Below, piece by piece: positions 4,612 through 62,800 of a stretch of 64,000 nucleotides of DNA (position 1 is the first letter of the stretch; the number at the start of each line of letters is the position of its first letter). The notes beneath the pieces were generated by a model. The model worked only from the letters and a program-made list of their open reading frames with translations. It searched no databases and was not told where the DNA came from. The position numbers were made by a program, and so were the translations under genes. Source of the stretch: Bolinopsis microptera (Eukaryota; Ctenophora; Tentaculata; Lobata; Bolinopsidae); contig NC_087076.1 of the NCBI RefSeq assembly GCF_026151205.1, positions 18,525,419 to 18,589,418 of the forward strand. Reading direction: 5' to 3'.

Positions 4612-6131
4612 ATGAACTCAATCAGTATCACAGGTATGCTGTTGGATGTTGATAAATATTTAGTTTGAAATCAATAAACTTAATCCAGTCTTAAACTTAA
4701 ACTTCAATACTAACTTCCAATTATCACCAACCAACATGTAGCGTTTGAAAATAATACCACTACAAGTATAAAAGTTTAAAATGCAAAACAGAGGTGATCG
4801 ATCATATAATCAATAATTTGATCTTGTTTCAGTTACCCTTGTGGCTGTCAGCTTAGTGGTCTCCTCAAATGGTTTTGCTGTAGGTTCGTAACACATAAAT
4901 TGCAGCTACTCTGCTGTTGCAATCACCCGAAATCTCCACTATTAACGGATATATTTTGTCGTACATTTTATTTGAAAATCAGTCCACAATTGCAAGTTGT
5001 AGAAATTATAACCCAAATTTATAAAGCTCCCTTGGAACACCGCAGGAGAGTTGGTGACATGTAACCTATGTCACCCGTTTGCTGGCGACACGGCACCGGA
5101 GGAATGTGACACGGACCCTGAGTACGGAGTGGAGTGTCCGCTGTGTTATCAGCTCTCTGGATCTGATAACTTCTTCAGAGAGATCTGCGTTCCTGTCAGC
5201 AACTACATGACCATCAGTGAGTTTAGTGACCATTAGTGAGTTTACAGAGTCGTTTTCATCCCCTCTCGGGCCTTCAACCTCCGTCTAGTAAGCTGCGACA
5301 AACTCCCCACCTCCCTCTCCCCCCAGACAAACCCCCCGGTCCTCATTAAAGCAAATTTAAACCTCCGTGTTTCACCGCCATTTATGGTCCGGTTTTCGTC
5401 ATTTTCCAGTTCCGGAGTAGAAACAATGTTCGCCCTCACTTCTCAGTACTTTATAGCTTTGGTTATGAGTATTTGTAAGCTTTAAACGTGATTTTATGCA
5501 ACATGTTTTTCAATAACCACCTCTCCCAGTGAACACGGTCATTCAGCCGGAGTTAGAATTGTGTTGGATGAAGAACCAAGGTAACTGTGTCCTACGACTG
5601 GTCGGACCTGTTTCTTCCTCGTCACCAACAATCTCTCCGGAGCCGGCAACCACAGATCCAGACTGCGCGAACTCTACTGATGAAGATGATGCTAGTTTTG
5701 TTGAGGATGAGATCGATGAGATCGATGAGAAAGGGGTGGATGAAGGTTATGATGTTGAGGACAGTGTTGTTCAAGGTAATGGCATTGAAGACAATGATAT
5801 TCAGGGTGATGATGTTGAAGACGATTCTATCGCTGACGGTGCTGTTGAAAACGATTCTGTCGCTGACGATACTGTTGAAGACGATTCTATCGCTGAAGAT
5901 GATACTGTTGAAGATGATACTGTTGAAGATGATACTGTTGAAGATGATACTGTTGAAGATGATACTGTTGAAGATGATACTGTTGAAGATGTAAATGTTG
6001 ACGATGATGAAGAAGATGTCTCCGAAACTTTGGATATAGATGATGAAGATGAGGACAGTACTGTCTTATTTGAAGAAATATTTCTGCTGTTTGTTAATGA
6101 GGAAACATCTATGGCAAGCACACTTGAGTGA
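4612..6131 (+). CDS. Secreted Cys-rich protein with acidic VEDDT-repeat tail (four exons)
   Basis: Exons 4612-4633, 4833-4883, 5046-5216 and 5530-6131 give 846 nt, i.e. 281 residues plus TGA. All three introns have GT-AG ends and are phase 1. Exons 1-2 encode a signal peptide (MNSISITVTLVAVSLVVSS). Exon 3 and the start of exon 4 form a Cys-rich domain of about 75 residues: CNLC, then C, CPLC, and single cysteines in REIC, LELC and GNC. From about residue 110 the protein is Asp/Glu-rich. It contains a run of VEDDT pentads (about seven copies, 15-bp units) encoded near 5900-5990, then DDDEEDVSETLDIDDEDEDS. No known family is recognised. An extracellular calcium-binding, matrix or mineral-associated role is only an inference from composition. 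AATAAA lies 41 bp after the stop. Confidence 0.8.
5896..5990 (+). repeat. 15-bp coding minisatellite (VEDDT units)
   Basis: The unit GAAGATGATACTGTT repeats nearly perfectly about six to seven times inside exon 4 of the acidic secreted protein gene. The 15-bp period keeps the reading frame, so copy number can change without breaking the protein. Diverged units extend upstream to about 5815. Confidence 0.9.
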
Positions 6132-21366: not shown

Positions 21367-24300
21367 ATGTTCTACCTGATACTACTCCTGCCCCTTCTCC
21401 CTCGTCCCGCCTACCAAGTCTGCTTACCCCAGTACGATTACATGGTAAGTACAACATCTACCACTTTGGCCATTTGGCTTATTCTCTACATGATTCTTTA
21501 CACTTTACTCCGACAAATACTTCCCCACCAAACCCTCACGCTCAACTCAAGTTCACCCCTTTTACCTTTACCACTTTACAGCACAACCCAATATAGATTA
21601 TAGAACTCAATATTATCCTTCACTCACATCTCCACCTCGATCCTCGGCACGATTACCCGATCAGTACAACCCCCTACAGATCAGTACTTTACATCCTTCC
21701 CCTCTCATCTCCCTCGTGGTCGACCTGTCCGTACCAACCGCAAATGGTTGGGTTTAATCCCAGGATGAATTTTTAACTATTTATGATTTAAGACAAATTA
21801 TGCAAATTTGAGGGCGTTTTTGTTCGCTCCGTTCTGTCGCTCCCAAAAGAAAGTTCTAGGAATGGGAAACATTTTTTCACACTTAAAAAGCGTTCAGAGA
21901 CAAAATCACCGGAAGGGTCCCACCGGAAGATGAGTAATTGAGGTTTAATTCTGCAAAGAACCAGCTGCCGGTTGGCAACGGTCCCTCATTCAAATAATGA
22001 CGTTTATTACCTTCCTAACACCCAGACGTAGGACAAGCTCACAGGGGCAGGGAGGGAGGGAGGCGGAAGCGACTTAGTCTACTAGTCTACAGTCAATTAC
22101 CCTTCACCCGCTCCACCCAGCTCTACCACAACTATTTTGTGCATCTCTTCATTAGCCGGGAGGCGGTAGAAATACCAGGAATATGCTGTGACACCAGGAG
22201 CCATGAAACGGCTTTAAGGGTTTGAAGGGACAAGCAGAGGGTAGGAAATTTGCTGGTAGATGGGATTTGTGGTCATTTTCTGGGATGTTGTGGACCCTGC
22301 CCAGTGCGCAAATGTTGCCAAATGGAGAGGTCATTGGGGATTCGTGATCTAATTTCAGAGTAGGTTGACCCTGTAAAGATGATGAAGTAACCAATTGGGG
22401 CTAGTCAATCAAAGTACCGTAGTTCTTAGTTTGGGGTATGAATAGCAAACGCGTTGCGAGTAGCTGAGTAGATTGCCAAACAACTATTAGCCGCCCTTAT
22501 AAGTTTATATGTGATTCCATCCAAAATTTATTCGATCACAAAGCTGCTGGAGCATAGAAACTACTATGTTTTCTGGTATCCAATTTCACAAATTTCTAAT
22601 TTTCTTAGGCCTCTGACCTAATATTAATATAAAATCATGCCTTTTAAGTGAATAATCAAAATTATTTTCATCCATCAAAATCATATACCATTATTATTCA
22701 TGATCCGACACAGATTTCTTCTTTTATACCGACATGGCGAAACTGCAATATGACCGTAAAATCTAGCTGTTTATTTGCCAGTACGTGGATACGTGATATA
22801 TAGCTATTAATTTGTCATCACTATTACGACTTGGATATAACAACTAAATTAACTTCTAATTTACTATATACAACGACATTTTCTCACACAATCTCCCTTT
22901 TCAGGTTAACCTTTACGAAGAATCCCAAGACAACACCTCCTCAAAGACCAAAGTCCACAGTTTTGCCAGCAACGGTAAGTGCACACTTTTACCCGTTTCA
23001 CTTGTACATCATGCATGGCGTGTCGTCAGTGTTTTGTAGTATATCTCGCAATGATGACGTCATTTGACCCTGTATTCTCTAAATGATGACGTCACAGATC
23101 GTGGGTTCCTCCCTTGTACTATATTTGACAACTCTATGATCGTTTGAACTATTTCTACTGATGATCGTTTTAAACTCAGAGCTGGCCAATCCTCACGTGC
23201 GATTTTTATTCAAACAATTATTGAACATACTGATACATGGTCTTAAAACTTCATTGAATAAGATCGCATTTAAAACAACCACAGCTTTTGAATCGCGAAG
23301 CTCTCTCCGCATAATAAAACTATAGATTAATATTATGTCGTCGGCACTGGGGAGGAACCTGCGATTCTTATATTAGCGGGTGTATTGTGATGTAGCATGC
23401 TGCACGCTTGTGCTGATGAATACAACTTAATAGTTTAACTTAGATTTAAAGACTGTGAAAATGACCTCAGATTTTATGTCACACCATCTCTAAATCTCTT
23501 GAGGACATTTTATCCCACGAGAAATTGTAAGAGTAAAAGTAGGGGGAAACTGTGCCGGGGTCCGATTGTGCGATTTTTCAACCCCGACCCGCACTTTCAG
23601 GCAAGAGTCGCAATAAAAACAACATAATATTCTCGTTTGAGAACGACTGGAAGATTCCCATGAGCTCGATGGTGGGTGCGGATCTGCACGTCATCTCAGT
23701 TTCAGATCTCCGGAGTAAGCTAGCCCAGTATCAGCTCCCTGAACCAGAGTTCGTCGTGGTGGAACTCTTCTTCAAGAAACGGGGCTTCAGGACCTTCCCC
23801 CGCCGAATATCCTCCACTGTGGTGGATCTAAGGAACTCTAGTACTATCAGTGTGAACGTGATGGACTATTTGTCCCGGGTCATGAACCGACCCTACCCTC
23901 AACCCAAGCTCATCCTCTCCCTGGCTTTTATGGGAGGAGACGCTCTTCCTTCAAAGTTCCTCATAAACCGGGGCTGTGTGACACCCTTCCTGATCGTCCG
24001 AACCAGGGAGAATCTCGACACAGACGTGGTGAACGAGATCCAGAAACCCTTCATCACTACTGGAGACAGACCCTGGGTTGGAGACAACAAGAGGACCAAG
24101 AGACGGGCCAAGAACTGGGCCACACCTCTCCTTTACCGAGACGTGACAGAGCTGGAGAAAGTCAACTACCACTGCAGGAGACAGGACCTGTGGATCAACT
24201 TCGACGAGATAGGCTGGGACTTTGTGATCACGCCTAAAGACGTAAACATAGGGGACTGTGGCGGGCAGTGTCTGGACGCTGATAACAATATTGCTCATGC

Positions 24301-24469
24301 AGTGGTCAAGCAGCTCCTTCAGAAAATGCACCCTGCTAGAAACGCGGGCATCTTGTGCTGCCAGGGGGCCAATTACAAGGAAATATCGGCCCTGTATTTC
24401 AAGAGCAAACACGAAATCGTTATTGGGAGCATGCCTAAAATAATTGTAAAGGAATGTAGATGCCGCTGA
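21367..24469 (+). CDS. TGF-beta superfamily ligand A (three exons)
   Basis: Exons 21367-21444, 22905-22974 and 23601-24469 give 1017 nt, a 338-residue preproprotein. Exon 1 encodes the signal peptide (MFYLILLLPLLPRPAYQ). The intron phases are 0 and 1. Exon 3 carries the prodomain, a basic furin-type site (KRTKRR) and a mature domain of about 120 residues. That domain has the seven cysteines of the cystine knot: YHC, GDCGGQC, ILCCQ and the terminal ECRCR. WDFVITPKD sits in the place of the usual W-x-x-W/I-AP segment. Such ligands are secreted dimers that signal through serine/threonine kinase receptors and SMADs. The subfamily (BMP/GDF or TGF-beta/activin) is not clear: the single Cys before the first knot residue argues against the nine-cysteine TGF-beta/activin type. 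An in-frame ATG at 21337 would only lengthen the leader. Confidence 0.9.
23055..23094. promoter_or_regulatory. Two CRE (TGACGTCA) sites in the last intron of ligand A
   Basis: Perfect 8-bp CRE palindromes lie at 23055-23062 and 23087-23094, each inside ATGATGACGTCA, 24 bp apart. CREs bind CREB/ATF bZIP factors. An enhancer role here is inference from the sites and their recurrence at 24901-24940. Confidence 0.45.
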
Positions 24470-24942: not shown

Positions 24943-24991
24943 ATCCCAAATACAAGGTGAGGCATGTTTTGATCCCTACCTCTCCTCTCAG

Positions 24992-25854
24992 GGCAGCATT
25001 GGACGGGGAACTCACTGGACTTCACCTTCTACATCGGCTCCAAGGAAAGCGACCTGACAGTTCTGAAGGCGGAGCTGGTGGTCATATCCCATGAGAAGTT
25101 GAAGGAAGTCCTGATGCTGAGTGCTGGAGAAAGGGTCAGGGTAACGGTAATTATACACTTCCTTAGGAGGGGTCACCAGCAGGAGTTCAAGTTCCCGATC
25201 TTTAACGAGACCTTCATGGTGTCCGGAGAGGACTCCACCATGCCGTCCGGGTACATCAGTGCCAATCTGACCCCGTACATGAGACGAGAGTCTCTGGATT
25301 TCCCGCGGTTCCGGGTCAAAGTGCTGGTCCACGACGTGTCCAGACAGAGACTACCGTACACAGCCCAGGATATCCTACAGGAGGACACCAGCTGTACCAC
25401 GCCCTTCATTGTTATCACTACTAGCAAGAAACAGGAACTAGCTTACGTAACCAACATCATCGAGAGGAAGAAAAGAGGTGCTACCGGCTTCACTCCTGAC
25501 TCTCAGCGTACCATCCAATACAAGGACGTCACTCCTCTGGAAATACCGGCTTTCCCCTGTCAGAAAGTTAAGTTTGACCTGAACCTGGCTGACATAGGCT
25601 GGGACTCCTGGATGTTGATACCTAAGATGGTGGATATTGGAGTGTGTCAAGGGACCTGCACCAACATGGACATGCTCATCCCTCACGCTCTAGCCAAACA
25701 CAAGATCGCCCAGATGATGCCCAATGAGAAGATAGGTAAGATTTGCTGTCAGGAGGCCTCTTACAAGGAGATTGTGGCGCTCTACCAGATAGACGGCTCC
25801 CTGGTAAAGTCCATCCTGCCCCAGTTTGTGGTAAATGCCTGCAGATGCAGGTAA
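24992..25854 (+). CDS. TGF-beta superfamily ligand B, terminal exon
   Basis: After an acceptor (CCTCTCCTCTCAG ending at 24991) the frame stays open to TAA at 25852-25854. It encodes a prodomain, the furin-type site ERKKR and a seven-cysteine mature domain: FPC, VCQGTC, KICCQ and NACRCR. The exon enters in phase 1 with two bases completing a codon, exactly like exon 3 of ligand A, and the two are homologous along their length though well diverged. No signal-peptide exon could be recognised in the 520 bp after ligand A. Either its first exons are short and unrecognised, or it is spliced to exons 1-2 of ligand A. Product: a secreted growth factor; subfamily open. Confidence 0.85.
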
Positions 25855-29794: not shown

Positions 29795-31846
29795 ATGTTG
29801 TTGTCGGCGGTTTTATTGGTGTTTTGTAGTGTGGCCATCACAGGTTCGGAGGCCAATACTGAAGAGATCTTCAATCAGGTTTGTGCGGTTTTACATATTT
29901 CCACAAAACTTCCAGACCACAGTCGAATTTGTTCATACTTCACAGTTCACCGCAAATTTTGGAAAATATTTTGACATGAAAAGAACGACTTTCATCAGAA
30001 ATTTTCAGCCAACCTGAAATGGGCAGCACATAGGAAGTACCTAAAGAGCGAGGGAGGACAGCGCTCTAAAATTGCATGTCTGTGAAAAATTAAAATGTTA
30101 AAACTGCCCCGGCCTCGCTAGCTGTTCCTCATGACATACAAGTCTTCAGTGTTTGCCCTAAACACGAGTGACCCGTGACGAGCACGCCGGACTATTCCTG
30201 CCACATTCTCACTACGTTGCTTGTTGCTCGCAAACTTGAAACATCTTTGCTACTTAAAAACGTTAAAACACTGTGAACTAACTGACACCGTACATCGCAA
30301 CTTAGACCGGATGGGGTGGTGGGAATTTATCAGTGTGGTGGCAAATATTCGGTTCTAAATTCCAGTTTAATTTGAGAGAACACTTTTGGGGCAGGTGGCC
30401 ACTGAAAAGTCATGAGTTGAAATTATAATAGTAGCGACCAAAACACAAATACCGGCCCTAAGTTTGCCGCCTTTTAGTTCTCCGTTTCTGACTTCAGTGG
30501 AAACAGTCGACGAAAAACAAAAGGCTGCAAGAAATCAAACCATGCTTACAAAAATAGAATTTTGTAAAGATATTGTATCCATGCACAGGAGTCCATAATT
30601 AAATCACCCGGTTCTTCATCAAAATATAATTTGTCAAATTTCTGCAGATTTGGAAAACATAATATTTTTTTGAGTGCATCTAAAGCCTATAATATAAGCC
30701 TATTTCAGTATTTCTAGCAGAAATCAAGATCATATTTCCAAAACCAATTTAAGTCCATAACCCATCAAATTACTACAGATTCAAGAGTTGCTGCGAACAA
30801 GGCGGTCAGTTTTAGGAGAAAGCGACTACCAGTGCTTTACCTCGGGAGAATGTGTATCCGAATACCAAATGGAAGGTCTGGTGACCTACAAAGAGGAAGC
30901 TTTGTGTACCCGAAGTGAGGAGGGCTGTGGAGAAGGAGTCATGGTTCTGGAACGAGCCAAGAGGGAGGAAATGTGCATGAACATGGATGAGGATATGGAG
31001 TTGTGCAAGAGATCAGTTGAACCACAACCAGCCTGCGGTATGGTTATGGAGAAGATCGAGGAGATGGGTTGTGGAGAGATTATTGTGGAGAGAAAAGTGA
31101 GGAGGAAGAGAGATATGTGTGTTGCTTTAAAGAAGAGGTTCTCTGGACTCTGTAGTGGACGGAGAAAGAGAGCTATCAGTGATGGGTGTAATAGAGTCAT
31201 GGAAGCAATGGAAAGTAGTGACTGTGCCAGTGAAGTTGAGTTTCTCAGTAAGAGACAGTCAGGATGTCCAGATGGGTGGACAGCAAGACAAGGTGTATGT
31301 TACAAGTACTTCAAGGACCCACTGAACTTTGCAAAGGCCAACAACTTATGTAAAGGAGCAGCTGCGGACTCGAGCTCTAGGTTGGCTACAATCCAGTCAA
31401 TGTCGGTGGACACACTGGAAGACAGGAAGTTCTTTGACTCTCTGATTGAGAGTTCCGGAGCAGTGGAGCACATCGATTCTGTCCTCTCCACAATGGACGA
31501 CATGTTCGAGGGTAAGAACTGGAAGGAAGTGATTGAGTATTATGATAACTGGGCTTGGATTGGAGTGAAGAGCTCAGGGGACGACTGGAAATGGGCGGTA
31601 CCCAGTCAGAAAGAGGCTGATTGGTCCCCAGTTAAGATAGGTCAAGATGATTGGAGGAAGAGCGAACCTTCTCAAGACCATGACCTGAGAATGGATAACG
31701 GAAACTGTGGGGTTTACTTCCACAACCGTAAGGAAAGGATAGACAGCTCTTTATCGGACAAAACAGACGAGGGAGAAGTCAAGGCCTGGTGGAACGCTAA
31801 CTGTGAACTGGAGCTGCCTTTCCTCTGTGAAGTCAGAGCTAACTAA
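29795..31846 (+). CDS. Secreted C-type-lectin-like protein with multiple dibasic cleavage sites
   Basis: Two exons, 29795-29878 and 30779-31846 (phase 0 intron, GT-AG), encode 383 residues. Exon 1 is a signal peptide (MLLSAVLLVFCSVAIT). The middle region of about 150 residues is Cys-, Met- and Glu-rich and is cut by basic motifs suited to furin-like proteases: RTRR, ERKVRRKR, GRRKR and LSKR. The C-terminal ~200 residues are a C-type-lectin-like domain starting GCPDGWTARQGVCYKY. It has WIGVKSSGDDWKWA in the WIG position and ends WWNANCELELPFLCE, matching the family's W-x-x-x-C...PFLCE close. No EPN or QPD sugar/calcium motif is visible, so carbohydrate binding is uncertain. It may be a precursor releasing Cys-rich peptides plus a lectin-like domain, which is inference. 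Confidence 0.85.
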
Positions 31847-42133: not shown

Positions 42134-45100
42134 TCAGGATGGTTTGACCGAACTGGTGATCTCGAATGAGATGCCACGCTGTTGTAGCCTGGCAACATAC
42201 TCGGGAATGTCCAGCATAGCACCGGGTGTTATAACTCCAACATTCCTGACAAAATTGTATTCATTAATACAATTAATTAAAAAGTTAGTAAATTAAAAAC
42301 TGGTTACACTCGTTGCCATTAATTATATGTTGATTACTAGTTGATAATGTGTATTACTGACTCTTTTCATTATTAAGCTATTAACCTAGGGTATTACATA
42401 TGTGTACGATGCACTCTAAGTAGAGCTTCAGAGCTTGTAAAGGCTATATTTAATCAGCTATTTGAGACAGTGTTCAGTGAATTTTACAGATAGCCGTGTT
42501 GGATAAGTGGTAGAGAAAACCTGTAACTTAAAGAGCAAGTAAGAGCCCCAAACCCAGTGATTTAAATGTGTTTAATTGTTGTATGTAATATCCGGGTAAG
42601 GAAATTATTTGTTAGTCGCATTGTTTTGATGTTTCTGATAATTCCGTATTATATGCGACCAAGGGAAAATGCTCTTTTCAGGTAAAGGAAACTGAACTTC
42701 AACGTTTCAACACAATCCATATTACCGCTGCAGTCTGCACAATGCATGTCACGTTCATTTTATGTATTCATGCAAAGTATTTCTTAGTCTTGTATTTATT
42801 TTGGGTTGCATAATTTTCTAGAAAGGTGTTTAGTCGTATCATGTTCATTGATTGTTCAATGTAAAATCTGGAGTGACCATATCGATGACAATCATAACGC
42901 TGTGATTTGTGAAAGGTATGGTTTCGTTAAAATAACTTTTTTGTCTGATCTGTCTGAACCTGTACTGCACTGCTGACTGCATATTTGATCGCATCCTAAA
43001 ACCGCTGTAAATTCCCAACTATCTGAATAAAAGTTGTAATAAAGCTAAGTTTCTTCCAATTACAGTAAAGGTATCGACCACACGACACCAATAAAACCGC
43101 ATGCGGTTAAATTCAATTATGCCTCCTCATCCTGGTTGACAGCTAATGAATTGTGCCAACACCTTGAAACTATACCATGTTGGCAGTAGATTGGCAGTCA
43201 TGAATCAGTATTACAAATACAAGACTCATATAATTTCCAAGAATCGGTCTGCGTCTTCTCATCGTCTCTAGAGATTAAATTGGCAGTTGTTCCTCCAAGG
43301 ATTTCTGTCTACATATATACATTGTCCGGTTCTTTTTGCTATTGTTAGTTCGTTTAAACAACATTTTGAAAATCATGTATAAGGGCTGATGAAGGTTAGG
43401 TTGTTTTCGCTTAAACCCTGGATGAGCTTATAACAATAGCTTCAGCCAAACCCTACATCGACTTTAGTATACGCCGTGTCGTCTTTGATTTCCCAATGAA
43501 CTGAATTTATAATCAATCAATTGTTCAGTAGTTCGAATTGTGATGTTTTGCGTCCAGAAATTTCTCCCCATCGTGCTGCTAATCTCACATACTGTGGCAG
43601 CACCACAAAGCTCCAGAAAGTGCTCGAAAACATTCAATGTCTTCGCAGAACAGGCAAACGCCCGACCCGAGAAAGTGGATGGCTCCCAAGTGTGTGATAT
43701 GTTCACAAAGAGCTGCTGTAACGAGAATACGGACCAGCTGATGAGAGACCTTGTCTCAACTGATTTCAAGGACCTGCTCCACACAGAGCTTCAGAACACG
43801 TTACACGTGCTAGGCAATTTAGTTGAGAGCTCACTAATTCCGACTTTGTTTCGGAAGGAGTTTAATGCTATGCTGAAGAACGACGAAAACCTGACCTACG
43901 AGGATCTTGCGAGAGCAGCAATTCCCTTGATGATTCGTGAGTCTTGTCTGGAGAAGCCTCATACGAGCCTGTTTGTAAGGGAACTTGCTCCAAGCATCAG
44001 GACAGCAACTGACCGGCTAAAAGTGCTTTACAATGGTCTTGAGGTGATAAAGGAGACTCTTGAAGCTGCCAGAGATATGGACCTTACTGAGGACTGTGTC
44101 TTGGCAGTGATGAAAAACGGTCTGTATTCTGGGCAAAACTTTGAGCTAAAGATGTGCCAGGTTTGCTCTAAAGAAACTGCAGGGGCTAAGCCATGTATCA
44201 GTACTTGTAAAAATGTGGCACGTGGATGTCTTCACCAGTTTACAGAAATTTCATACCTGTTAAACGAACTGACTTTACGGCTGGACAGACACCGCTCGCA
44301 TCTCAACAGCGACGTTGAAAGTATCTTTGAAGCGTTGGAGGATTGGAGGACAGATATAAGGAACTCAGCATACCTTAGAGAGTGTTCAACAGGTAGTGAG
44401 TTAAGTTTTTATCTCGAGGAGGCAGCTTCCATGGTCTTCTCAGGAAAGCCTCTAGAGCTGAGAGATATCTTTAGAAAGACTGCCGACACTGCCTGCCTGC
44501 GCTCTGAAGTTTACGAATTGGTAAACAAAGATTGTTGGACTGCAGAGGGTCTCACTGCAGTGGATACAGGAAATGTGGCCCCATTTACGACCCACGACCA
44601 GACCCATGGAAACCTCATTTTTCCCCGACCGGTGAACGTCGGCATGACCGTCACTGTCGCAGTGGAGTCGTTGAGGGATGCTATCGAAATGTCAGACAAA
44701 GTGGATCGAGAAAAGAATCTGTTGCTTATAAGGAGATCTGATAACACGGAAATTCCAACAGGAGTAACTGAACGAACATCACAAAGTGCTCAACAGCCTA
44801 CAATGTCTTTACGAGCACCGCCAGATGTCTCTACGTCTGAAATTGTACCGCCAGATGTCTCTACAACGTCTGAAATCGTACCGCCAGATGTCTCTACAAC
44901 GTCTGAAATCGTACCGCCAGATGTCTCTACAACGTCTGAAATCGTACCGCCAGATGTCTCTACAACGTCTGAAATCGTACCTCCAGATGTCTCTACAACG
45001 TCTGAAATCGTACCTCCAGATGTCTCTACAACGTCTGAAATCGTACCTCCAGATGTCTCTACAACGTCTGAAATCGTACCTCCAGATGTTTCAATAACTT

Positions 45101-48100
45101 CTTCCAAAGGCATCATCCTTTTTAAAACAACAATAACGCCAGTTTCATCAGTGGACTCTAAACGAGAACGCTTAACTGTCGGACAGACATCTGAGAGTAC
45201 AGGAGGTACCATTCCTCCGACAACAACATTTAAAGTAGATGTCTCAGAAGAACGGGAAACAACAACAATTCTCCAACCTCCCACCACCAAGGATTCTAAA
45301 GACCATCAAAAATCTGATGAGCAGCTCGATATATCAACAACGCAAGCAGTTGAACAGACATCTTCAGAGATTGTGCCTCCCAAAGATTTATCTACTTCTC
45401 CAGAAAGACAAGCTTTAACAGAGATTACTGCTCCAGTAACAGAAGATTCAACCGAGATTACTGCTCCAGTAACAGAAGATTCAACCGAGATTACTGCTCC
45501 AGTAACAGAAGTTTCAACAGAAGTTTCTAAAGAATTACCGCCAACAGTTGAACAGACTTCTTCTCAATTTGCGCTTGTTACTGCAACTGACCGTTCTACC
45601 ACTCATGATTCAGCCGAGATTACTGCTCCAGTAACAGAAGATTCAACAGAGATTACTGCTCCAGTAACAGAAGATTCAATAGAGATTACTGCTCCAGTAA
45701 AAGAAGATTCAACAGAGATTACTGCTCCAGTAAAAGAAGATTCAACAGAGATTACTGCTCCAGTAACAGAAGATTCAACCGAGATTACTGCTCCAGTAAC
45801 AGAAGATTCAACAGAGATTACTGCTCCAGTAACAGAAGATTCAACAGAGATTACTGCTCCAGTAAAAGAAGATTCAACACAGATTACTGCTCCAGTAACA
45901 GAAGATTCAATAGAGATTACTGCTCCAGTAAAAGAAGATTCAACCGAGATTACTGCTCCAGTAACAGAAGATTCAACAGAGATTACTGCTCCAGTAACAG
46001 AAGATTCAATAGAGATTACTGCTCCAGTAACAGAAGATTCAACCGAGATTACTGCTCCAGTAAAAGAAGATTCAGCAGAGATTACTGCTCCAGTAACAAA
46101 AGATTCAACAGAGATTACAGCTCCAGTAACAGAAGATTCAACAGAGATTACTGCTCCAGTAACAGAAGATTCAACCGAGATTACTGCTCCAGTAACAGAA
46201 GATTCAATAGAGATTACTGATCCAGTAACAGAAGATTCAGCAGAAGTTTCTAAAGAATTACCGCCAACAGTTGAACAGACTTCTTCTCAATTTGCGCTTG
46301 TTACTGCAACTGACCATTCTACCACTGATGATTCAGCCGAGATTACTGCTCCAGTAACAGAAGATTCAACAGAGATTACTGCTCCAGTAACAGAAGATTC
46401 AACCGAGATTACAGCTCCAGTAACAGAAGATTCAACCGAGATTACTGCTCCAGTAAAAGAAGATTCAACAGAGATTACTGCTCCAGTAAAAGAAGATTCA
46501 ACCAAGATTACTGCTCCAGTAAGAGAAGATTCAACCGAGATTACTGCTCCAGTAACAGAAGATTCAACAGAGATTACTGCTCCAGTAACAGAAGATTCAA
46601 CCGAGATTACAGCTCCAGTAACAGAAGATTCAACCGAGATTACTGCTCCAGTAAAAGAAGATTCAACAGAGATTACTGCTCCAGTTAAAGAAGATTCAAC
46701 CAAGATTACTGCTCCAGTAAGAGAAGATTCAACCGAGATTACTGCTCCAGTAACAAAAGATTCAACAGAGATTACAGCTCCAGTAACAGAAGATTCAACC
46801 GAGATTACTGCTCCAGTAACAGAAGATTCAGCAGAAGTTTCTAAAGAATTACCGCCAACAGTTGAACAGACTTCTTCTCAATTTGCGCTTGTTACTGCAA
46901 CTGACCATTCTACCACTGATGATTCAGCCGAGATTACTGCTCCAGTAACAGAAGATTCAACAGAGATTACTGCTCCAGTAACAGAAGATTCAACCGAGAT
47001 TACAGCTCCAGTAACAGAAGATTCAACCGAGATTACTGCTCCAGTAAAAGAAGATTCAACAGAGATTACTGCTCCAGTAAAAGAAGATTCAACCAAGATT
47101 ACTGCTCCAGTAAGAGAAGATTCAACCGAGATTACTGCTCCAGTAACAGAAGATTCAGCAGAAGTTTCTAAAGAATTACCGCCAACAGTTGAACAGACTT
47201 CTTCTCAATTTGCGCTTGTTACTGCAACTGTCCATTCTACCACTGATGATTCAACAGAGATTACCGCTCCAGTAAAAGAAGATTCAACAGAGATTACTGC
47301 TCCAGTAACAGAAGATTCAACAGAGATTACTGCTCCAGTAAAAGAAGATTCGACAGAGATTACTGCTCCAGTAAAAGAAGATTCAACAGAGATTACTGCT
47401 CCAGTAACAGAACATTTAACAGAGATTGCTGCTCCAGTAACAGAAGATTTAACAGAGATTGCTGCTCCAGTAACAGAAGATTCAACCGAGATTACTGCTC
47501 CAGTAACAGAAGATTCAACAGAGATTGCTGCTCCAGTAACAGAAGTTTCAGCAGAAGTTTCTAAAGAATTACCGTCAACAGTTGAACAGACTTCTTCTCA
47601 ATTTGCGCTTGTTACTGCAACTGTCCATTCTACCACCGACGATACTGAAGGTAATCAAGAACCTACTGTACCAGTTACGGAACAAAAAGAAGCAACAACA
47701 ATGAAAACAGATCCGCAGCCACTAACCACGAAATTCACAAATAAGCAAGAGAAACCTTCAACGGAACAGAAAGAAACTGATCAGATGGCAAAGACAGATC
47801 CTCAAGAATCTGAATGATAACTGAAGAAGCTCCAGAGGTACCAGTTGAGGCATCAGAAGGAGATCAAGATGATATTGAGTCGACCGAACAAAGTCTAAAC
47901 AACCTAATAAGACAGTTCCAAAAGATTCTACTGAGATAAAGGAGGAGTCAACCGCTCAAAAGACTGATAATGAATCAGATGGTTCAACCGAAGGAACTGG
48001 TATTTCTGATAATGAGGAAACTGATGAAGAATATAATAATGAATCCACTGAAGTGGATTCTAATGAGACATCCCATTTATCTCCAAAAGAATCTGAAGAA

Positions 48101-51100
48101 ACAACACAAGAATCTTTAGTCGATAAGCAAGAAACAACAACTACAGAAGTACTTGAAGAGTCTGATATGGCAACTGATGAATCTCCTCAGGAAATTGATG
48201 AGACATTAAAGACAGTTCAGAAGGATTCTGATGAAATAACGGTTAAATCATCAACTGACAAACCTGATCAAGGATATGATGGTTCAACAGAGGAAACTGA
48301 TGAATCTGAAAAGAAAACAGAGAAAGCTTCTGAAAAGAACTCCCGATGACGTATCAGAATTAGATGAAAAGAGTGCCGATGAAAAAGCAGATCAGACTCC
48401 TGAAGAAACTAGTGGGCCAATTGTAGAAACTGATGAGGGATCTGGTGGATCAACGGATAAAATTGATCACCAAATGAATAAGCCAACTGAAGAAACTGAC
48501 ACAGAATTTGAAACGAAAACTGAAGTAGCTCCAAATGTATCGGATGAAGAATCTGGTATGGCAACTGACGAACCTCCCCAAGAGCTTGATGGTGCATCTG
48601 AGACAATTCTTGAAGATTCAGATGAAATAACAGTTGACTCAACCGGCGAAACTGAACGAGGATCTGATGGTTCAATTGAAGAAACTAATGAATCTGAAAT
48701 GATAACGGAGGAAGCTCCAGATGTAACAGATAAGCCAACTGAGGGAACTTATGAAGAGTCTGAGAAGGAAATGAAAGAAGCTTCAGAGACATCAGATGAA
48801 GCGACCGAGTTGGATCAAGAATCCAACGAAACATATGATCTAACGGAATCATATGAGACAACTAAAGAAACTCTGCCCGAATCTACATCAAACACTGTTA
48901 CTGGCGCCGGGATTGACAACTTAAAGGTAACTTTAGCGCCTGATAATCAAGTTGTGATTGAAACAGAAAAACCTATAATCAAAAAAACGACACATGACTC
49001 TGATAAGGCAACAGAGGGCGTTACAGAGAGTTCCGATGTTGAAGATTCTAATGAGACCATTGAGGCGAGTCCAGAAAAATCTAATGAAGCAGCAGTTTTA
49101 GTTCCAGACGAATCTGTCCCACATGACGTTGTTCCTGGTGAAACTGTAACAGATGAAACTGTTACAGAAGAGAATGTTACAGAGGAGGCTGTTACAGAGG
49201 AGACTGTTACAGAGGAGACTTTTACAGAGAAGACTGTTACAGAGGAGACTGTTACAGAGAAGACTGTTACAGAGAAGACTGTTACAGAGGAGACTGTTCC
49301 AGAGGAGACTGTTACAGAGGAGACTGTTACAGAGGAGACTGTTCCAGAGGAGACTGTTCCAGAGGAGACTGTTACAGAGGAGACTGTTACAGAGGAGACT
49401 GTTACAGAGGAGACTGTTACAGAGGAGACTGTTACAGAGAAGACTGTTACAGAGGAGACTGTTACAGAGAAGACTGTTCCAGAGGAGACTGTTACAGAGG
49501 AGACTGTTCCAGAGGAGACTGTTCCAGAGGAGACTGTTACAGAAGAGACTGTTACAGAGGAGACTGTTCCAGAGGAGACTGTTACAGAGAAGAATGTTAC
49601 AGAGAAGACTGTTACAGAGGAGACTGTTACAGAGGAGACTGTTACAGAGGAGACTGTTCCAGAGGAGACTGTTACAGAGGAGACTGTTCCAGAGGAGACT
49701 GTTACAGAGGAGACTGTTACAGAGGAGACTGTTCCAGAGGAGACTGTTACAGAGAAGAATGTTACAGAGAAGACTGTTACAGAGGAGACTGTTACAGAGA
49801 AGACTGTTCCAGAGGAGACTGTTACAGAGGAGACTGTTCCAGAGGAGACTGTTCCAGAGGAGACTGTTCCAGAGGAGACTGTTACAGAAGAGACTGTTCC
49901 AGAGGAGACTGTTCCAGAGGAGACTGTTACAGAGAAGAATGTTACAGAGAAGACTGTTACAGAGGAGACTGTTACAGAGAAGACTGTTCCAGAGGAGACT
50001 GTTACAGAGGAGACTGTTCCAGAGGAGACTGTTCCAGAGGAGACTGTTCCAGAGGAGACTGTTACAGAAGAGACTGTTCCAGAGGAGACTGTTACAGAGG
50101 AGACTGTTGCAGAGGAGACTGCTCCAGAGGAGACTGTTACAAAGGAGACTGTTACAGAAGAGAATGTTACAGAAGAGACTGCTTCAGAGGAGACTGTTAC
50201 AGAGGAGACTGTTACAGAGGAAACTGTTACAGAGGAGATTGTTACAGAGGAGACTGTTCCAGAGGAGACTGTTACAGAGGAGACTGTTCCAGAGGAGACT
50301 GTTCCAGAGGAGACTGTTCCAGAGGAGACTGTTCCAGAGGAGACTGTTCCAGAGGAGACTGTTCCAGAGGAGACTGTTCCAGAGGAGACTGTTCCAGAGG
50401 AGACTGTTCCAGAGGAGACTGTTACAGAGGAGACTGTTCCAGAGGAGACTGTTACAGAGGAGACTGTTCCAGAGGAGACTGTTCCAGAGGAGACTGTTAC
50501 AGAGGAGACTGTTACAGAAGAGACTGTTCCAGAGGAGACTGTTCCAGAGGAGACTGTTCCAGAGGAGACTGTTCCTGAGGAGACTGTTACAGAGGAGACT
50601 GTTCCAGAGGAGACTGTTACAAAGGAGACTGCTCCAGAGGAGACTGCTCCAGACGACTCATCATCATTTGGTGTGGCTCATAAACAAAACATTATATTGA
50701 CAATCTTAAATGTAGTTTTTGTATGTTACTTGTTTAGATTGGTGTAGTAAATTTTTCAGAGTTTCAGGGATTTGAAGGGATTGAAATTGCAAACGGGTCT
50801 AAGTATGAAAGCATTATTGCAAGTTTACTTTAAATCTTTTACGTTAAGGGACGTTTTATAGTCCAACATTTGGCAGCTTATGTGTAGTTATACCTAAGTG
50901 CATATCTTTCAAGTCGATAAAATATGTATATGTAAGTTATGTTTGTCTTTTGATTAATTCGAAAGTTTTATTCTTATCGGCAGTGACTTACTATTTGCAT
51001 TCTGATTCCAGACAATTCAAAAATGTATAAATGAATGGGTCCACCAAGCCATACACAAAAGTAAATTTACTAAAATAGAAAAGATATTATATAAAATATC

Positions 51101-54854: not shown

Positions 54855-55464
54855 ATACTGATATCTGGATATTATCCGGTTGGAAGAGACAAGGACAAGT
54901 GAAACAAGGAAGTTAGGAGTAAGGGCAAATTTTCGGCGTCAACGCCATCTTCAGGCTAAAATTGTTATAAATGTTAGTATATAATAAATGCTTCTATACT
55001 AGTTAAAATGCTAAATTAAAATTACACACACTGAATACAGGTTACATCAAATGGTATTGTACATTACATTGAAAATAGTGATGTACACACGTTTTACACT
55101 CTGTCCAAGTACATAATATCTACTGAACAGCAGGGTCGTGTGCTATTTGTTTAAATTTGTCTTTGAATATGTTGTAAAAGAAATCCCTTAAGCTTCTCGC
55201 ACTCTTCTTTGTTATTGATACTAGGTTTAAATAAATTAATGTAGTAAGCTTCTGTCACTTTACGTTTAATGGTGCTATATAAGTTAATTTCTAAAATATC
55301 GAAGGAAATATCTGGTTCTATGTTATCGTGAAACTCTGAATAATGAGCAGCCAACGCATTATCAGGATAGGTTAAAGGCCTGTTGACTGCTCTTCGATGC
55401 TCTGAAAATCTATCGTGTGCTGTTCTACTCGTTTCCCCTATATATAGCTCTTGACATAATTTAC
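54855..55464 (-). repeat. Left arm of a 610-bp near-perfect inverted repeat (Penelope-like 3' end)
   Basis: This is the reverse complement of 55978-56587 over the full 610 bp with no net gaps; I noticed about one substitution (near 55110/56327). It contains the 3' end of a Penelope-like coding region and its 3' UTR, with a hammerhead-like core at 54931-54954. Confidence 0.9.
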
Positions 55465-55970
55465 ACGTAACTTTGTATATGACACATTTTGGTTTGCAGT
55501 CGTGATTTGTTGTGATGAGTGGACATATGATACAGTTTGGTATGGTGCAGTGTGGTTTGTCGTGTGGTCGTGATGAACATAAGATCTCTGAGAGTTTCTT
55601 ACCTGGTGTGAATATGAATTTGACCGGTAAGTTGTGTGAGAGGGCAAATTGAGTGACTTCTTTGGAAAATGGCTCGTTGATGAATGGTAGAGTGCATGTT
55701 ACGTGGTCGGTATCTTGTATGTTTGATGATGAAGGGTTATGACGTGTTGTAGGTGAGAGAGGGTGAAGTCGTCCTGTTTTGTTTATACGTCGTGGGTCTT
55801 GGTAACCGTTGTTGACCAACAAGTTGTCTACTATCTTCATGGACTCTTCTTTATACTCTGGTGTTGATGAGCAAAAAGCAGCCGTTTTGTAGAAGTTCTT
55901 GATGGTTGCTACTTTAGTTCCCTCATTGTGGTGGCTGTTGGCGTGCAGTGTGATATTCTTTTTCTGCTAT
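55151..55970 (-). CDS. Penelope-like element protein, C-terminal part with GIY-YIG endonuclease
   Basis: The frame is open from about 55970 (after an in-frame stop) to the stop at 55151, with an internal ATG at 55840. Upstream residues (KVATIKNFYKTAAFCSS) fit the end of the reverse transcriptase/linker. Then come the Cys/His linker typical of Penelope-like endonucleases (CTIPNCIICPL, HDCKPKC) and the GIY-YIG nuclease core IYKVTCKLCQELYIGETSR with FSEHRRA. The catalytic reverse-transcriptase motifs are absent, so this is a 5'-truncated copy. The nuclease would nick DNA during retrotransposition. Confidence 0.85.
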
Positions 55971-57069: not shown

Positions 57070-58431
57070 TTAATCGGAATCGTCCCATGTATCAGGAACA
57101 TCGTCATCACAAACCTCAAATCCACCTCGATCAATTGAATCACCCTTGAGTTTAATAACGTGTTCAAATTTTTCTGTGATCGCTTTCTTGAACTCACGGT
57201 TATTACCGGGGGTTAATCTGATGAAACCATCCCCCACACCAATTAAATTAAACATGGAAGCCTCTTCGCTGTCCAACTTAGATTTTATCCACTCTTCACC
57301 ACGCTTGTTGCGAACTGTGTTTTTGTTTAGCTTTTCTTTTAACCAGCTCAGGAAGTTGTCCAGAAACGTAAGAATATCGTTGGGTGTCCAATAATTCTTG
57401 CCAATCGCAGCTAATTCATCCATGCTGTACTTCTTTACGTCGATCAGCATCCCTTCCACGGTTCTGACTCCACAATAAACGGTATCAACCCCAAGCAAGG
57501 CGCAATGTATCCATAATTTGCAAGATTTGTACCTTGCAAATGTCTCCCTTTTCATAGGAAGCATGGTTTTAATTTCTACATAATTCTCTTGTTCGTCAAT
57601 GGGACCATCAGGAAATTGGCAGCTTATTCTCGTTGCTGTAAAAATAGTGTGACTCTCCAGGGTTGCAAGCTTGATGCACCTTATATCAGTATCCTCGCCT
57701 CTGTATAGTGGGTTTCCTGGCCCTCCACTTTTCATTACATCCTCAAACTTCTTCCCGTGTTTCATCAGTTCCTTGTCTTTCAAAGCAGCTGTCTTTAAAG
57801 CTACATGAGGAAAAAAACCAAATTTCTTATGAAGCAGTGATAGATCAGTAATAATCTTTCCATGATCAGAATCTGGCTCATGGAAACCTTCTAACCAGTA
57901 TTTCAACTCCCTTTTCATTTGTCCGCCCATGAATATTTTCCCCTTATAATGCAGTAAAGATATTTTCCATGGTGTGGATTTAGGCTGGTATGCAGCCATA
58001 GCAAATGTTCTTAAAACAAGGCCACCTGCAAAGAATTCAACATGACTGAGACTGACTTTCTCCCTCAGTGCCCAAGTGAGACACTTTTCTATGGCAAAAA
58101 AGTCGGGCAAAAACGCTGGCATATCCACAGGAGGGATTTTAATGTTGAAATCGTTACGGTGAGGATTTGTTTCATCCGAATAATATTGATTGTCATCCTC
58201 GACCCATGTGTCCATTTTAAGGCTTAGTGGTAATGATAAAGGACGAGGAGGTCTAACAAAAGGTATTTGACATTGCTCTGGTATCGGTTGACCTGATTTC
58301 TTTGACCATGTTTCTATGTCAACTGGATGAGATTTGAAGGTTCGTCCAATTTCTTGTATATGGAATTTACAGGAACTTCTCTGGTGATCTACTCTCTCAA
58401 CTGGAAACTTTAAACAGTCCTTGCTATTCAT
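57070..58431 (-). CDS. DXO: DXO/Rai1-family decapping nuclease-like protein, intronless
   Basis: A single open frame of 453 residues. The family's core is recognisable: HGKKFEDVM (position of the motif II Glu, E230) and NYVEIKT (motif IV E-x-K, E286 and K288), with a YCGVRT segment behind. DXO/Rai1 enzymes remove incomplete or NAD-type caps from mRNA and degrade the RNA, using metal ions held by these acidic residues. Motif III, normally E-x-D in a FSGEVDC-like context, reads TATRISC here, so both acidic residues are replaced (R268 and S270). The motif V glutamine position also appears to be His (LWIHCALL). The protein may therefore be catalytically weak or dead. The absence of introns suggests a retrocopy. 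A paralogue in the same orientation starts beyond the LINE at 63550. Confidence 0.75.
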   Translation of the reverse strand: MNSKDCLKFPVERVDHQRSSCKFHIQEIGRTFKSHPVDIETWSKKSGQPIPEQCQIPFVRPPRPLSLPLSLKMDTWVEDDNQYYSDETNPHRNDFNIKIPPVDMPAFLPDFFAIEKCLTWALREKVSLSHVEFFAGGLVLRTFAMAAYQPKSTPWKISLLHYKGKIFMGGQMKRELKYWLEGFHEPDSDHGKIITDLSLLHKKFGFFPHVALKTAALKDKELMKHGKKFEDVMKSGGPGNPLYRGEDTDIRCIKLATLESHTIFTATRISCQFPDGPIDEQENYVEIKTMLPMKRETFARYKSCKLWIHCALLGVDTVYCGVRTVEGMLIDVKKYSMDELAAIGKNYWTPNDILTFLDNFLSWLKEKLNKNTVRNKRGEEWIKSKLDSEEASMFNLIGVGDGFIRLTPGNNREFKKAITEKFEHVIKLKGDSIDRGGFEVCDDDVPDTWDDSD

Positions 58432-58699
58432 TATATATTGAACTGAAAGTCATGCGACTGGCCTGGGTTGAAATTTGAATTATATGGAAATGAATAGTTC
58501 GATAGGAATTAAAGAATTATAAAAGCTGTTAGGGTAATAATTAACCTATCTATTTTAGAAGTTGAAGTTAAAGGTGATCTTAATATTTCATTGATTATGG
58601 TTTTTGAATAAACTTTATTATTTATTATATGAATTTAAGAAATTACATCATTACATGGCCTTTTTGGAGTTTTAATCATTTTGACAAGAAATGTTGTAA

Positions 58700-61600
58700 A
58701 ACTTTGAGTAGTTGGAACTGAAGATAGCCAACATGATGCAACATTAAAGAAAAAAGTTAAAATATTCGAGAAAAAAGGTGATACAGTTTATTATTATCCA
58801 GAGCATTTGACATCATTGCCATTGGGACTCTTTAAACAAGCTAAAACTTTAAATGATTACATTATCATATCGATTATACTTTTATCAATCTCCATATCAA
58901 TCACTAAAAATGCAGTCACTGCCTTAAGAGCTTATGTTTAGGTCAAAAATTTGTTGAATGTTTTAAATGTAATTGCATTATACATGAAAAATGTTTCAAA
59001 AACTCTGAAGCAACCGTGATCAACTCAAATTACTTTTGTAGTCAGTGCAAAGCGCTAATCCTTAAACAGTACAACCCGTTTAAAGATATGATTAGTAAGT
59101 CGGATAACAATAACAACGACCCCTTGATTCTGAAAATGTCACAAGTTCTAGAATATTGTAAGCCTTACTCCACCAACAAATTTAATAACGAACTTAGTGC
59201 CGATCTTCATAAAAATGGTGGCTCTTTCTTCCTGAATATCGACGGCAACAAAAGCAACTTCGACCATCTCATATCTGAATTAGAGTGCCTCAAACACAAT
59301 TTCCCTATCATAGGCCTTGCCGAAACCAATATGAGCCCAGAAGAGAGTTCCGTTTACCCTATTAATGGATTCAATAGTTTCTACCAGACTACAATGCATA
59401 ACAAATCGAAAGGAACGGGCGTTGCAGTTTATGTTCACAATGCTTTTAATGCAGTCGTTAATGTAGATGTATCAAACGTCACCAGTAATTTAGAAAGCCT
59501 CTTTGTGACTATTCATCAAGAATCTAAAACTATAAACGTAGGAGTAATCTATAGACCCCCTAGTGGAGACATTGACGAGTTTCTCGCTGAGCTACAAGTA
59601 ATTATGGGTAAACTCCCAAAGTTAAATGTACATGTAATGGGTGATTTTAATATTAACCTCCATAACGGCAATAGAAGATGCACACAAGAATTAGAAAACA
59701 TAATGCTCGGATTAGGGTACTCACCAACGATATCTATCCAAACACACGAAAAGCCTGGATGTAAACCATCCTGTATTGATAATATTTTCACTAATGAAAT
59801 CGAAAGCACGTTGTTTACAGGAACGTTGCAACTCAATGTTTCTCACCACCATGCCATCTTTCAAATCAATAGTTGTCTTAATTTTGTAGCTGATGAACCT
59901 AAACTTAAACACGCACAATATTACGACTATAGCACCTCAAATGTAGACGCCTTTCTCACATCAATTAATAATGAACTACATACCAATCCTCCTGAAAACT
60001 TCAGTAGTTTCTGCACTACTTTTCAGAAGCACCTAGACGAGGCATTCAAACTTGACAAACCGAAATTATCTAAACGTAACGCTTTGAACAACCCATGGAT
60101 TACTAGTGGTATTGTTACCTCAATTCGAACGAAAGACTCGCTCTATGATTTGTGGAAAAAGTCTCAGAAGAAAAAATGTTTATTGCTAACTAATAATAAT
60201 AATATTAAACGCGAGGAGTGTAATTGCCTCACTTGTATGAATATAGCAAAAAGATACCTTGAATATAAGGATTACAGGAAGCATCTCAAGGTACTTATTG
60301 ACCGTGTCAAGAAGAATCATTATGCAGGTAAATTAACTGACTGCTCTGGTGATAGTAAGAAAACGTGGGAAATCATAAACACTATTCGTGGAAAATCCAG
60401 GCGTGAAATAAAGCCATGTTTTATCCTTAACGATCAAAAAATAATAAATCGTAGGATGATTGCTAATGAATTCAATAAATATTTTCAGTCGATTGCATCC
60501 AAACTAAATGAAAATTATTCTGAAGATTATATAACCCTGGATGCAATTCCCTCATTCTCAAACTTCTTACCTAAAACCTGTGAGTCAAGTATATATCTTA
60601 GTGATTGTACACAGTATGAAATTATAGATATTATTAATGAGTTCACAAATGGTAAATCTAGTGACATTCCAATTCACGTTATAAAAAAGTCTGCTAGAAT
60701 AATATCTCCCTTTTTAGCCAAGCACTTTAACCATTGCATGCAACAGGGGATATTCCCAGATGAACTTAAATTAGGAAAGATAAGTCCCATCTATAAAAAA
60801 GATAATCAGGAACTATTTGAAAACTATAGGCCAATATCAACCTTACCAGTATTTGGAAAAATTTTAGAGAAACTTATTTATAAACGTATGTACAGCTTCC
60901 TAATTGCTAAAAGAATCATTTATGAGAACCAATTTGGATTTAGAAAGGGTCACTCAACAAGCCACGCACTGAACTTATCTGTTAGCCATATCGAATCACA
61001 CTTAAAAGACAGGAAACACGTTCTTGGCATTTTCATTGATTTAAGTAAGGCTTTCGACACGATATCTCACGAGAAGCTTTTATTCAAATTAAATAATTAC
61101 GGAATTAGGGGCAACGCACTGAATTTGATAAAAAGTTACCTGTCAAACCGGAGCCAATATGTTCACGTCTTAAATGAAAACTCCGATAAACTTCCTGTTG
61201 AGTGGGGAGTTCCCCAAGGCTCTGTTCTTGGTCCCTTACTATTCCTCCTGTATATAAATGACCTATGCAACGTATCTAATAAAGGCAAGTTTATCTTATT
61301 TGCTGACGACACTAACCTATTCGTTTCTGCAGACTCGAAAAAAGACGTTTATAATGTAGCTAACGATATTCTTTCTTCTATTTCTAGATACATGAAATGT
61401 AATCTACTACATATTAACGCTAAGAAGAGCTGTTATATGTATTTCTCCCCAAACAAACGTGTAAATGAATCGTCTACATGCAGTACACCCGATGATTTAA
61501 ATCTCTCCATAGACGGCTCCATAATAATACGTGTTAAAACAACTAAGTTTCTAGGTGTGCTGATTGATGATAAACTGAACTGGAAACCTCACATCGAATC

Positions 61601-62800
61601 ACTAAATAAGAAACTAAGAAGTGCTTGTGGACGTATTTACCGCATAAAAAACTGTCTACCTATAAAACTGCACAAGCAGATATACCACACACTATTTGAA
61701 TCACACCTTACGTTCGCCATCTCAGTATGGGGTGGTGTCTCTAACCAAGTTATCAACCCTGTATTCTTAACACAGAAGAGATGTATTAGAATAATTTTTG
61801 GAGATGCAAACTCATATCAAAACAAATTCAAAACATGTGCTCGTTCTAGACCTATTCAATGTAAAATACTGGGTAAATATGAGTCTAATGTTAATAACTC
61901 TGTTAATCCACGTATTAAACCATGTGCAAAGTGTGTCCGCTCTAAATCGGTAGTTCATAATAAACTTGTTAGACCCTTATGTTGTCAAAAACTAGGAGCT
62001 GAATTCTATTCCAAGGAATCAACCAAACCATTATTTAACAGTCATAAACTCCTTACTGTTCATAATCTTTACAAACTTCGTACTATAACTGAACTTTTTA
62101 AAATAGTGAAATATAGGGTACCCATATCTCTCTACTCTTTACTTAACATGTCTGAACTGAGGGATGACCGTCTAATACCACCAAAGCCAAGCCATAACTT
62201 TATTTATAAATCTTCTTGGCTTTGGAATCAATTCAAGGACTCCAATCCACAGAATAAACCTGACTTTGTGAACACATCCTGTAACTCAATCAAATCAAGG
62301 CTAAACCGATCTCTTCTAGATGCCCAAAGCAGGTTCGATAATGAGTGGCATAATGACAACTTTAACAGTTTTGGACCATGCTAGATTATTGATAAAAACG
62401 TGGAATTTATGTAAACAAATACTTAATTACTTAAATATTGCCGTTTCCGTACGGCGCTATACGTAATATATGTTAAAAGCGCGCCGCAGCTACTCCCTAC
62501 CTCAACATTTGCGCGGGTTTCTTAAGCGCGCACGTACGTTTATTCTTGGCCGTTAATCAGACCCATGACATAACGCTATAGGTGGCAGTGACTGTAATTT
62601 TCTTCAACAATTACTGAATTATCCATCCATAAAGTGATTTACAAAATGACACCTAAACCTCGTGTTTCGGTGTTCACTTAAACGGTACTTGGCGGCTGAA
62701 CTGTGGTGTCTGACGTTTGCAGCTAGATCGGACTCTGCATGATATTGTATTAGCAAATTTGTATAGTGTATAATTGTTTAGTGTTTATAATACTCTGCAA
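58700..62800 (+). mobile_element. Non-LTR retrotransposon body (ends approximate)
   Basis: The coding part is described separately. 5' of it, 58730-58900 has a short protein-like frame (PEHLTSLPLGLFKQAKTLND) that may be the leading part of the element or unrelated host sequence. 3' of the stop, 62385 to about 62800 may be its 3' UTR. No poly(A) tail, microsatellite end or target duplication can be fixed, so both ends are guesses. It lies between the two DXO-family genes. Confidence 0.5.
58908..62384 (+). CDS. LINE (CR1/L2-type) ORF: zinc finger, AP endonuclease, reverse transcriptase
   Basis: After a stop at 58905-58907 the frame is open to 62384 (about 1,158 codons). The first in-frame ATG is only near 59088, so the true start is missing or upstream of the stop. 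The order is: a PHD-like Cys/His finger (CSHC, CFKCNC, HEKC, CSQC; 58911-59050), an APE-type endonuclease (GLAETN, YRPPSGD, MGDFNINL, IDNIFTN, SHHHAIF) and a reverse transcriptase (PISTLPVFGKILEKL, QFGFRKGHST, FIDLSKAFDTISH, GVPQGSVLGPLLFLLYINDL, and the catalytic FADDTNLF near 61299-61322). The C-terminal part has CxxC-type motifs. The motif style points to the CR1/L2/Rex1/Daphne group of non-LTR retrotransposons. It copies its RNA into nicked DNA. Confidence 0.9.
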   Translation, partial: KCSHCLKSLCLGQKFVECFKCNCIIHEKCFKNSEATVINSNYFCSQCKALILKQYNPFKDMISKSDNNNNDPLILKMSQVLEYCKPYSTNKFNNELSADLHKNGGSFFLNIDGNKSNFDHLISELECLKHNFPIIGLAETNMSPEESSVYPINGFNSFYQTTMHNKSKGTGVAVYVHNAFNAVVNVDVSNVTSNLESLFVTIHQESKTINVGVIYRPPSGDIDEFLAELQVIMGKLPKLNVHVMGDFNINLHNGNRRCTQELENIMLGLGYSPTISIQTHEKPGCKPSCIDNIFTNEIESTLFTGTLQLNVSHHHAIFQINSCLNFVADEPKLKHAQYYDYSTSNVDAFLTSINNELHTNPPENFSSFCTTFQKHLDEAFKLDKPKLSKRNALNNPWITSGIVTSIRTKDSLYDLWKKSQKKKCLLLTNNNNIKREECNCLTCMNIAKRYLEYKDYRKHLKVLIDRVKKNHYAGKLTDCSGDSKKTWEIINTIRGKSRREIKPCFILNDQKIINRRMIANEFNKYFQSIASKLNENYSEDYITLDAIPSFSNFLPKTCESSIYLSDCTQYEIIDIINEFTNGKSSDIPIHVIKKSARIISPFLAKHFNHCMQQGIFPDELKLGKISPIYKKDNQELFENYRPISTLPVFGKILEKLIYKRMYSFLIAKRIIYENQFGFRKGHSTSHALNLSVSHIESHLKDRKHVLGIFIDLSKAFDTISHEKLLFKLNNYGIRGNALNLIKSYLSNRSQYVHVLNENSDKLPVEWGVPQGSVLGPLLFLLYINDLCNVSNKGKFILFADDTNLFVSADSKKDVYNVANDILSSISRYMKCNLLHINAKKSCYMYFSPNKRVNESSTCSTPDDLNLSIDGSIIIRVKTTKFLGVLIDDKLNWKPHIESLNKKLRSACGRIYRIKNCLPIKLHKQIYHTLFESHLTFAISVWGGVSNQVINPVFLTQKRCIRIIFGDANSYQNKFKTCARSRPIQCKILGKYESNVNNSVNPRIKPCAKCVRSKSVVHNKLVRPLCCQKLGAEFYSKESTKPLFNSHKLLTVHNLYKLRTITELFKIVKYRVPISLYSLLNMSELRDDRLIPPKPSHNFIYKSSWLWNQFKDSNPQNKPDFVNTSCNSIKSRLNRSLLDAQSRFDNEWHNDNFNSFGPC

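Follow-up and report, generated by a model that had tools for sequence, protein, structure and literature searches.

The open frames between positions 43543 and 50747 (+) of the window, the whole 64,000-nucleotide stretch analysed here, probably belong to a single-exon or nearly single-exon ctenophore gene, which would encode a secreted, probably GPI-anchored glypican core on a minisatellite-grown stalk of ~1,970 residues, with the breaks in its reading frame being assembly errors. The product is an extreme variant of the known glypican family and not a new kind of molecule; what is new is the stalk.

Judged from its sequence, the head (43603-44748, +) is a genuine glypican core, ordinary though divergent. 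This placement is based on a profile score and on a pattern of 14 cysteines found in the head and in two paralogues. The Pfam Glypican profile (PF01153) scored the head at 41.6 bits (cut-off 26.4), with only ~87 of the 555 profile positions strongly matched. Exactly 14 cysteines lie between the leader and the linker (C27, 51, 58, 59, 135, 185, 205, 208, 218, 222, 229, 281, 318 and 331), and 14 disulfide-bonded cysteines are a hallmark of the glypican family (PMC3828384). The best Pfam match falls on a conserved core block, CQVC...KPCISTCKNVARGC (44155-44229, +), which aligns with the Glypican-1 and Dally-like structures. These two also head the PDB sequence matches, which are weak (E 0.004 to 0.05). 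The cysteines of the head match those of human Glypican-1 one to one in order and spacing, and the aligned part of Glypican-1 agrees with this. The protein begins with a putative signal peptide, MFCVQKFLPIVLLISHTVAA (43543-43602, +), a hydrophobic N-terminal segment (Kyte-Doolittle 11-mer maximum of 2.17) preceded by an in-frame stop codon at 43510. The initial annotation had described the head as glypican-like, with a signal peptide and a CxxC and KPC...GCL block. The block is where it was said to be, and the first Met, at 43543, does begin a hydrophobic leader. The profile search and structure prediction that it proposed for the head fared differently: the former scored over the cut-off, whereas the latter, an AlphaFold2 single-sequence model, reached a mean pLDDT of only 38.6, too poor to judge the all-alpha elongated fold of glypican cores or to support a fold search. 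A scan of viral and prokaryotic contigs with the head alignment found no relatives.

Genome-wide (264.65 Mb, 232 contigs), PF01153 matched in only two places at an E-value of 0.001. When the head was used as a query, two clear paralogues were identified on the same contig as the focal gene, 0.18 and 2.6 Mb away, and the glypican profile matches all three genes. The head of paralogue 2 (C5:18388029 onward) is 37% identical to the focal head and lies in a single-exon open frame, while that of paralogue 3 (C5:15956731-15957711, minus strand) is 28% identical and also encoded by a single exon. Hydropathy indicated a hydrophobic N-terminal leader in all three, and the cysteine order C, C, CC, C, C, CxxC, CxxxC, C, C, C, C is common to the three heads. 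Exactly 14 cysteines follow the leader of paralogue 2; in paralogue 3 the count is 4+10 across a frame break of its own near the signal peptide, which leaves the leader and CC motif shifted by one base relative to the remainder. Because the spacing is conserved, one additional base is the indicated cause of this break. Paralogue 2 resembles the focal gene in its 14 cysteines, acidic linker, hydrophobic tail and single exon, but its linker is only ~200 residues long, with 40% Asp/Glu and acidic Ser-Gly motifs nearer the tail. Its head, acidic Ser-Gly linker and hydrophobic tail all lie within one 601-residue frame, so the same order of parts does exist in one protein. Paralogue 3 likewise shares the 14 cysteines and hydrophobic tail, but has a linker of just a few tens of residues. 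Similarity between the C-terminal tails of the focal gene and paralogue 2 was not significant (shuffle fraction 0.20), and was therefore discarded as proof of linkage.

The focal linker, nominally ~1,970 residues of the 2,401 codons between 43543 and 50747, consists of three tandem arrays and acidic spacers. TRF recovered each of the three successive arrays previously proposed: PPDVSTTSEIV (array 1, 44817-45089, +; 33 bp x 8.4, 97% matches, score 490), EITAPVTEDST (array 2, 45393-47555, +; 33 bp x 66, 82% matches, score 2482) and VTEET/VPEET (array 3, 49143-50646, +; 15 bp x 100.3, 92% matches, 0% indels, score 2441). These scores place the arrays far beyond chance. An in-frame count gave ~49 full units in array 2, interspersed with EVSKELPPTVEQTSSQFALVTATDHSTTDDS spacers. 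Translation and a motif scan identified an acidic, Ser/Thr-rich spacer with three Ser-Gly motifs at 48339-49142 (+), ahead of array 3. Ser and Thr make up 27-32% of the linker over its three frames and Asp and Glu 22-34%, and its net charge is about -440. The proposed stalk length of ~2,000 residues holds, at ~1,970, if the frame breaks are single-base indels, but an intron at 47651-48357 would give a protein of ~2,165 residues in total. Matches of the arrays to Apolipoprotein, HC2, DUF520, YajQ and BigA (Pfam/NCBIfam) were taken as artefacts of repeat composition.

The paralogue linkers have a few tens and ~200 residues. The history that assumes least is that a length-tolerant linker grew by minisatellite expansion, from the tens to 200 residues of the paralogues to ~1,970 in the focal gene. 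A codon-position test detected no clear constraint on the array sequence: substitutions in array 3 are 70 non-synonymous to 11 synonymous, near the neutral expectation. None of 139 array substitutions creates a stop codon, which is weak evidence as the substitutions are non-independent. The length and composition of the stalk would matter, and its exact sequence would not. The linker is presumably disordered, and an extended, O-glycosylated, polyanionic stalk with a contour of ~500-700 nm (at 0.25-0.36 nm per residue) would keep the ligand-binding core well away from the membrane. Such a spacer function is plausible.

The initial annotation treated 43543-50747 as one gene. This agrees with the complementary character of its two halves and with homologous repeat units on both sides of the breaks, but the head frame stops at 47817 and the frame then changes three times. 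The frame at 43513-47817, whose first Met is at 43543, is open for 1,434 codons up to a TGA, and no single frame spans the entire region. Three frame changes (from frame 1 to 3, then to 2, then back to 3) instead fall between 47814 and 48349 (+), a zone that is itself coding-like and homologous to downstream units: frame 3 covers 47814 to ~47937, frame 2 covers 47879-48349, and frame 3 resumes from ~48339 to 50747, this last frame being open from 48240. Degenerate repeat units can be aligned across the breaks (47796-47879 with 48680-48764, and 48154-48333 with 48545-48721 at 76% identity), and in comparison with its homologous unit the first break corresponds to one missing A (GAATCTG-AATGATAAC versus GAATCTGAAATGATAAC). 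When the units are read in their piecewise frames, mismatches at codon positions one, two and three number 26, 21 and 38, and this third-position excess (38/85, p=0.019) supports the translation of those frames.

A leader but no anchor is found in the head frame, whereas the frames downstream finish in an anchor-like segment and contain nothing resembling a leader. The C-terminus (50647-50747, +) resembles a GPI signal, with small residues, a spacer, a hydrophobic end (...DDSSSFGVAHKQNIILTILNVVFVCYLFRLV before the stop codon) and no cytoplasmic tail, and the last 17 residues have a Kyte-Doolittle value of 2.3. A hydrophobic GPI-type tail is therefore present at 50747 as annotated, but it is reached from the head only across the three frame changes. 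The complementary halves, the homologous units flanking the breaks, the mismatch bias and the frame break in paralogue 3 together make it likely that head, stalk and anchor form one protein, which would be the outcome with an intron as well; such a protein would probably be secreted and GPI-anchored. The genome is that of a ctenophore, most likely Bolinopsis microptera. The ligand-binding part of one of its ionotropic glutamate receptors has its best match in the Mnemiopsis structure ML032222a, and a search with part of that sequence recovered copies at 75-80% identity; a COX1 search gave no match. The best-matching published assembly, of Bolinopsis microptera, was built from PacBio data with wtdbg2, gap closing and pilon polishing, and the paper names both CLR and HiFi libraries for its species (PMC10232365). 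Residual indels may well persist in that assembly, and leftover single-base errors of this kind are the best reading of the three frame changes.

Other accounts of the breaks place the cause in the gene itself. One gene with an intron of ~700 bp (for example 47651-48357) would remove the frame changes and explain three clustered breaks by one event. Candidate splice sites exist: the donor, AAG|GTAATC, is fair (98th percentile of the window), and the acceptor, TATCAG, is compatible in phase. We nevertheless consider an intron unlikely: the acceptor is weak (83rd percentile) and has no pyrimidine tract, the putative intron looks like coding sequence, is homologous to coding units further downstream and carries the third-position excess in its own frames, and the paralogue frames are single-exon. 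It is less likely still that the breaks are real, as they would be in a decaying allele or in a gene for a secreted, unanchored protein that ends at 47817 with a stalk of ~1,000 residues. The three frame changes are present in the DNA as sequenced and variation in the arrays is near neutral, but all three fall within ~530 bp of 7.2 kb, for which our own arithmetic gives a chance of ~0.015 with three random events, while 4.3 kb upstream and 2.4 kb downstream are open and 100 copies of the 15-bp array contain no indels. Two adjacent genes, one with the head and the other with the VTEET repeats and the anchor, would account for the stop codon at 47817 and the different frame that follows it. We give this very little credence, as the downstream frames feature no signal-peptide-like segment (most hydrophobic 11-mer at or below 0.9) and homologous repeat units flank the breaks on both sides.

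Assembly errors within one gene remain the preferred reading, and the protein so reconstructed departs from vertebrate glypicans in the position of its Ser-Gly sites. In vertebrate glypicans, clusters of Ser-Gly lie in the last 50 residues before the C-terminus (PMC3828384). A motif scan of the focal gene found no such canonical heparan sulfate site and only three Ser-Gly sites (48411, 48441 and 48552), which have acidic neighbours and lie 731-778 residues from the C-terminus. The view that the usual GAG-bearing linker has been replaced therefore needs qualification: none of these motifs is membrane-proximal, but three acidic-flanked ones persist. Genome-wide searches with models for EXT GT47/GT64, NDST, the XYLT C-terminal region and CHGN (PF03016, PF09258, PF12062, PF12529 and PF05679) returned no matches, a result from which multi-exon genes may escape. 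The same genome yielded three GT43 matches, of which the one inspected is of the B3GAT type, and 82 Sulfotransfer_2 matches, so the search was sensitive to related enzymes. Carbohydrate sulfotransferase frames (PF03567) are also abundant, with at least 50 strong and mostly single-exon examples, alongside no match to a GAG polymerase model; one top sulfotransferase candidate had no PDB match. Against reading the empty searches as absence, the heparan sulfate 6-O-sulfotransferase family has been reported in 21 of 21 animals, including Mnemiopsis (PMC6040629). Ctenophores reportedly lack perlecan (PMC4398486). It is conceivable, though doubtful, that ctenophores have glypican cores and no standard GAG initiators or polymerases, with the long polyanionic stalk of this protein, which is probably O-glycosylated and may be sulfated, taking the place of heparan sulfate chains. 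If true, this would be a GAG-free glypican, informative on whether cores or chains came first.

Several other frames were observed in the window. Two single-exon frames for TGF-beta ligands (23543-24469 and 24973-25854, both +; Pfam TGF_beta, 78 and 60 bits) are located ~18 kb upstream of the glypican. In flies, TGF-beta-type ligands are regulated by glypicans, but proximity by itself is no proof of a connection. Further upstream, a 204-residue frame of acidic DDTVED repeats (5517-6131, +) had no Pfam match at 0.001; the same was true of a 361-residue frame (30761-31846, +) that resembles a C-type lectin domain by eye. Downstream are a 459-residue RAI1/DXO-like PD-(D/E)XK nuclease frame (57070-58449, -) and a 1,158-residue non-LTR retrotransposon open frame with endonuclease and reverse transcriptase (58908-62384, +). 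A frame at 55151-55966 (-) with an LYIGETSR motif and a weak GIY-YIG-type endonuclease match (TIGR01453) may be a fragment of a Penelope-like element.

Ctenophores probably branch as sister to the other animals, and in those animals that have been studied, Wnt, Hedgehog and TGF-beta/BMP signalling is shaped by glypicans. We found no description of a ctenophore glypican, including from Mnemiopsis, in searches of an open-access library. The three 14-cysteine heads suggest that the earliest animals already had the glypican core domain. As EXT, NDST, XYLT and CHGN were not found, it becomes testable whether this core preceded, or has outlived, heparan sulfate. A single genome with linkers of tens, 200 and 2,000 residues also provides a natural test of the effect of linker length.

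In comparison with known glypicans (GPC1-6, Dally and Dally-like; PF01153), the focal gene shares the signal peptide, a 14-cysteine core of the same order and close spacing, the CxxC...CxxxC...GC block, a linker and, across the frame changes, a putative hydrophobic anchor signal. It differs in having a stalk of nominally ~1,970 residues rather than tens, probably a single exon, and no Ser-Gly repeat in the last 50 residues. The stalk itself is comparable to those of membrane mucins and other Ser/Thr-rich stalks, which also feature tandem repeats rich in Thr, Ser and Pro and of minisatellite origin, and Pfam Mucin-like and other low-complexity profiles match the focal arrays. This likeness implies no homology, and the focal protein is far more acidic than membrane mucins and bears a glypican head.
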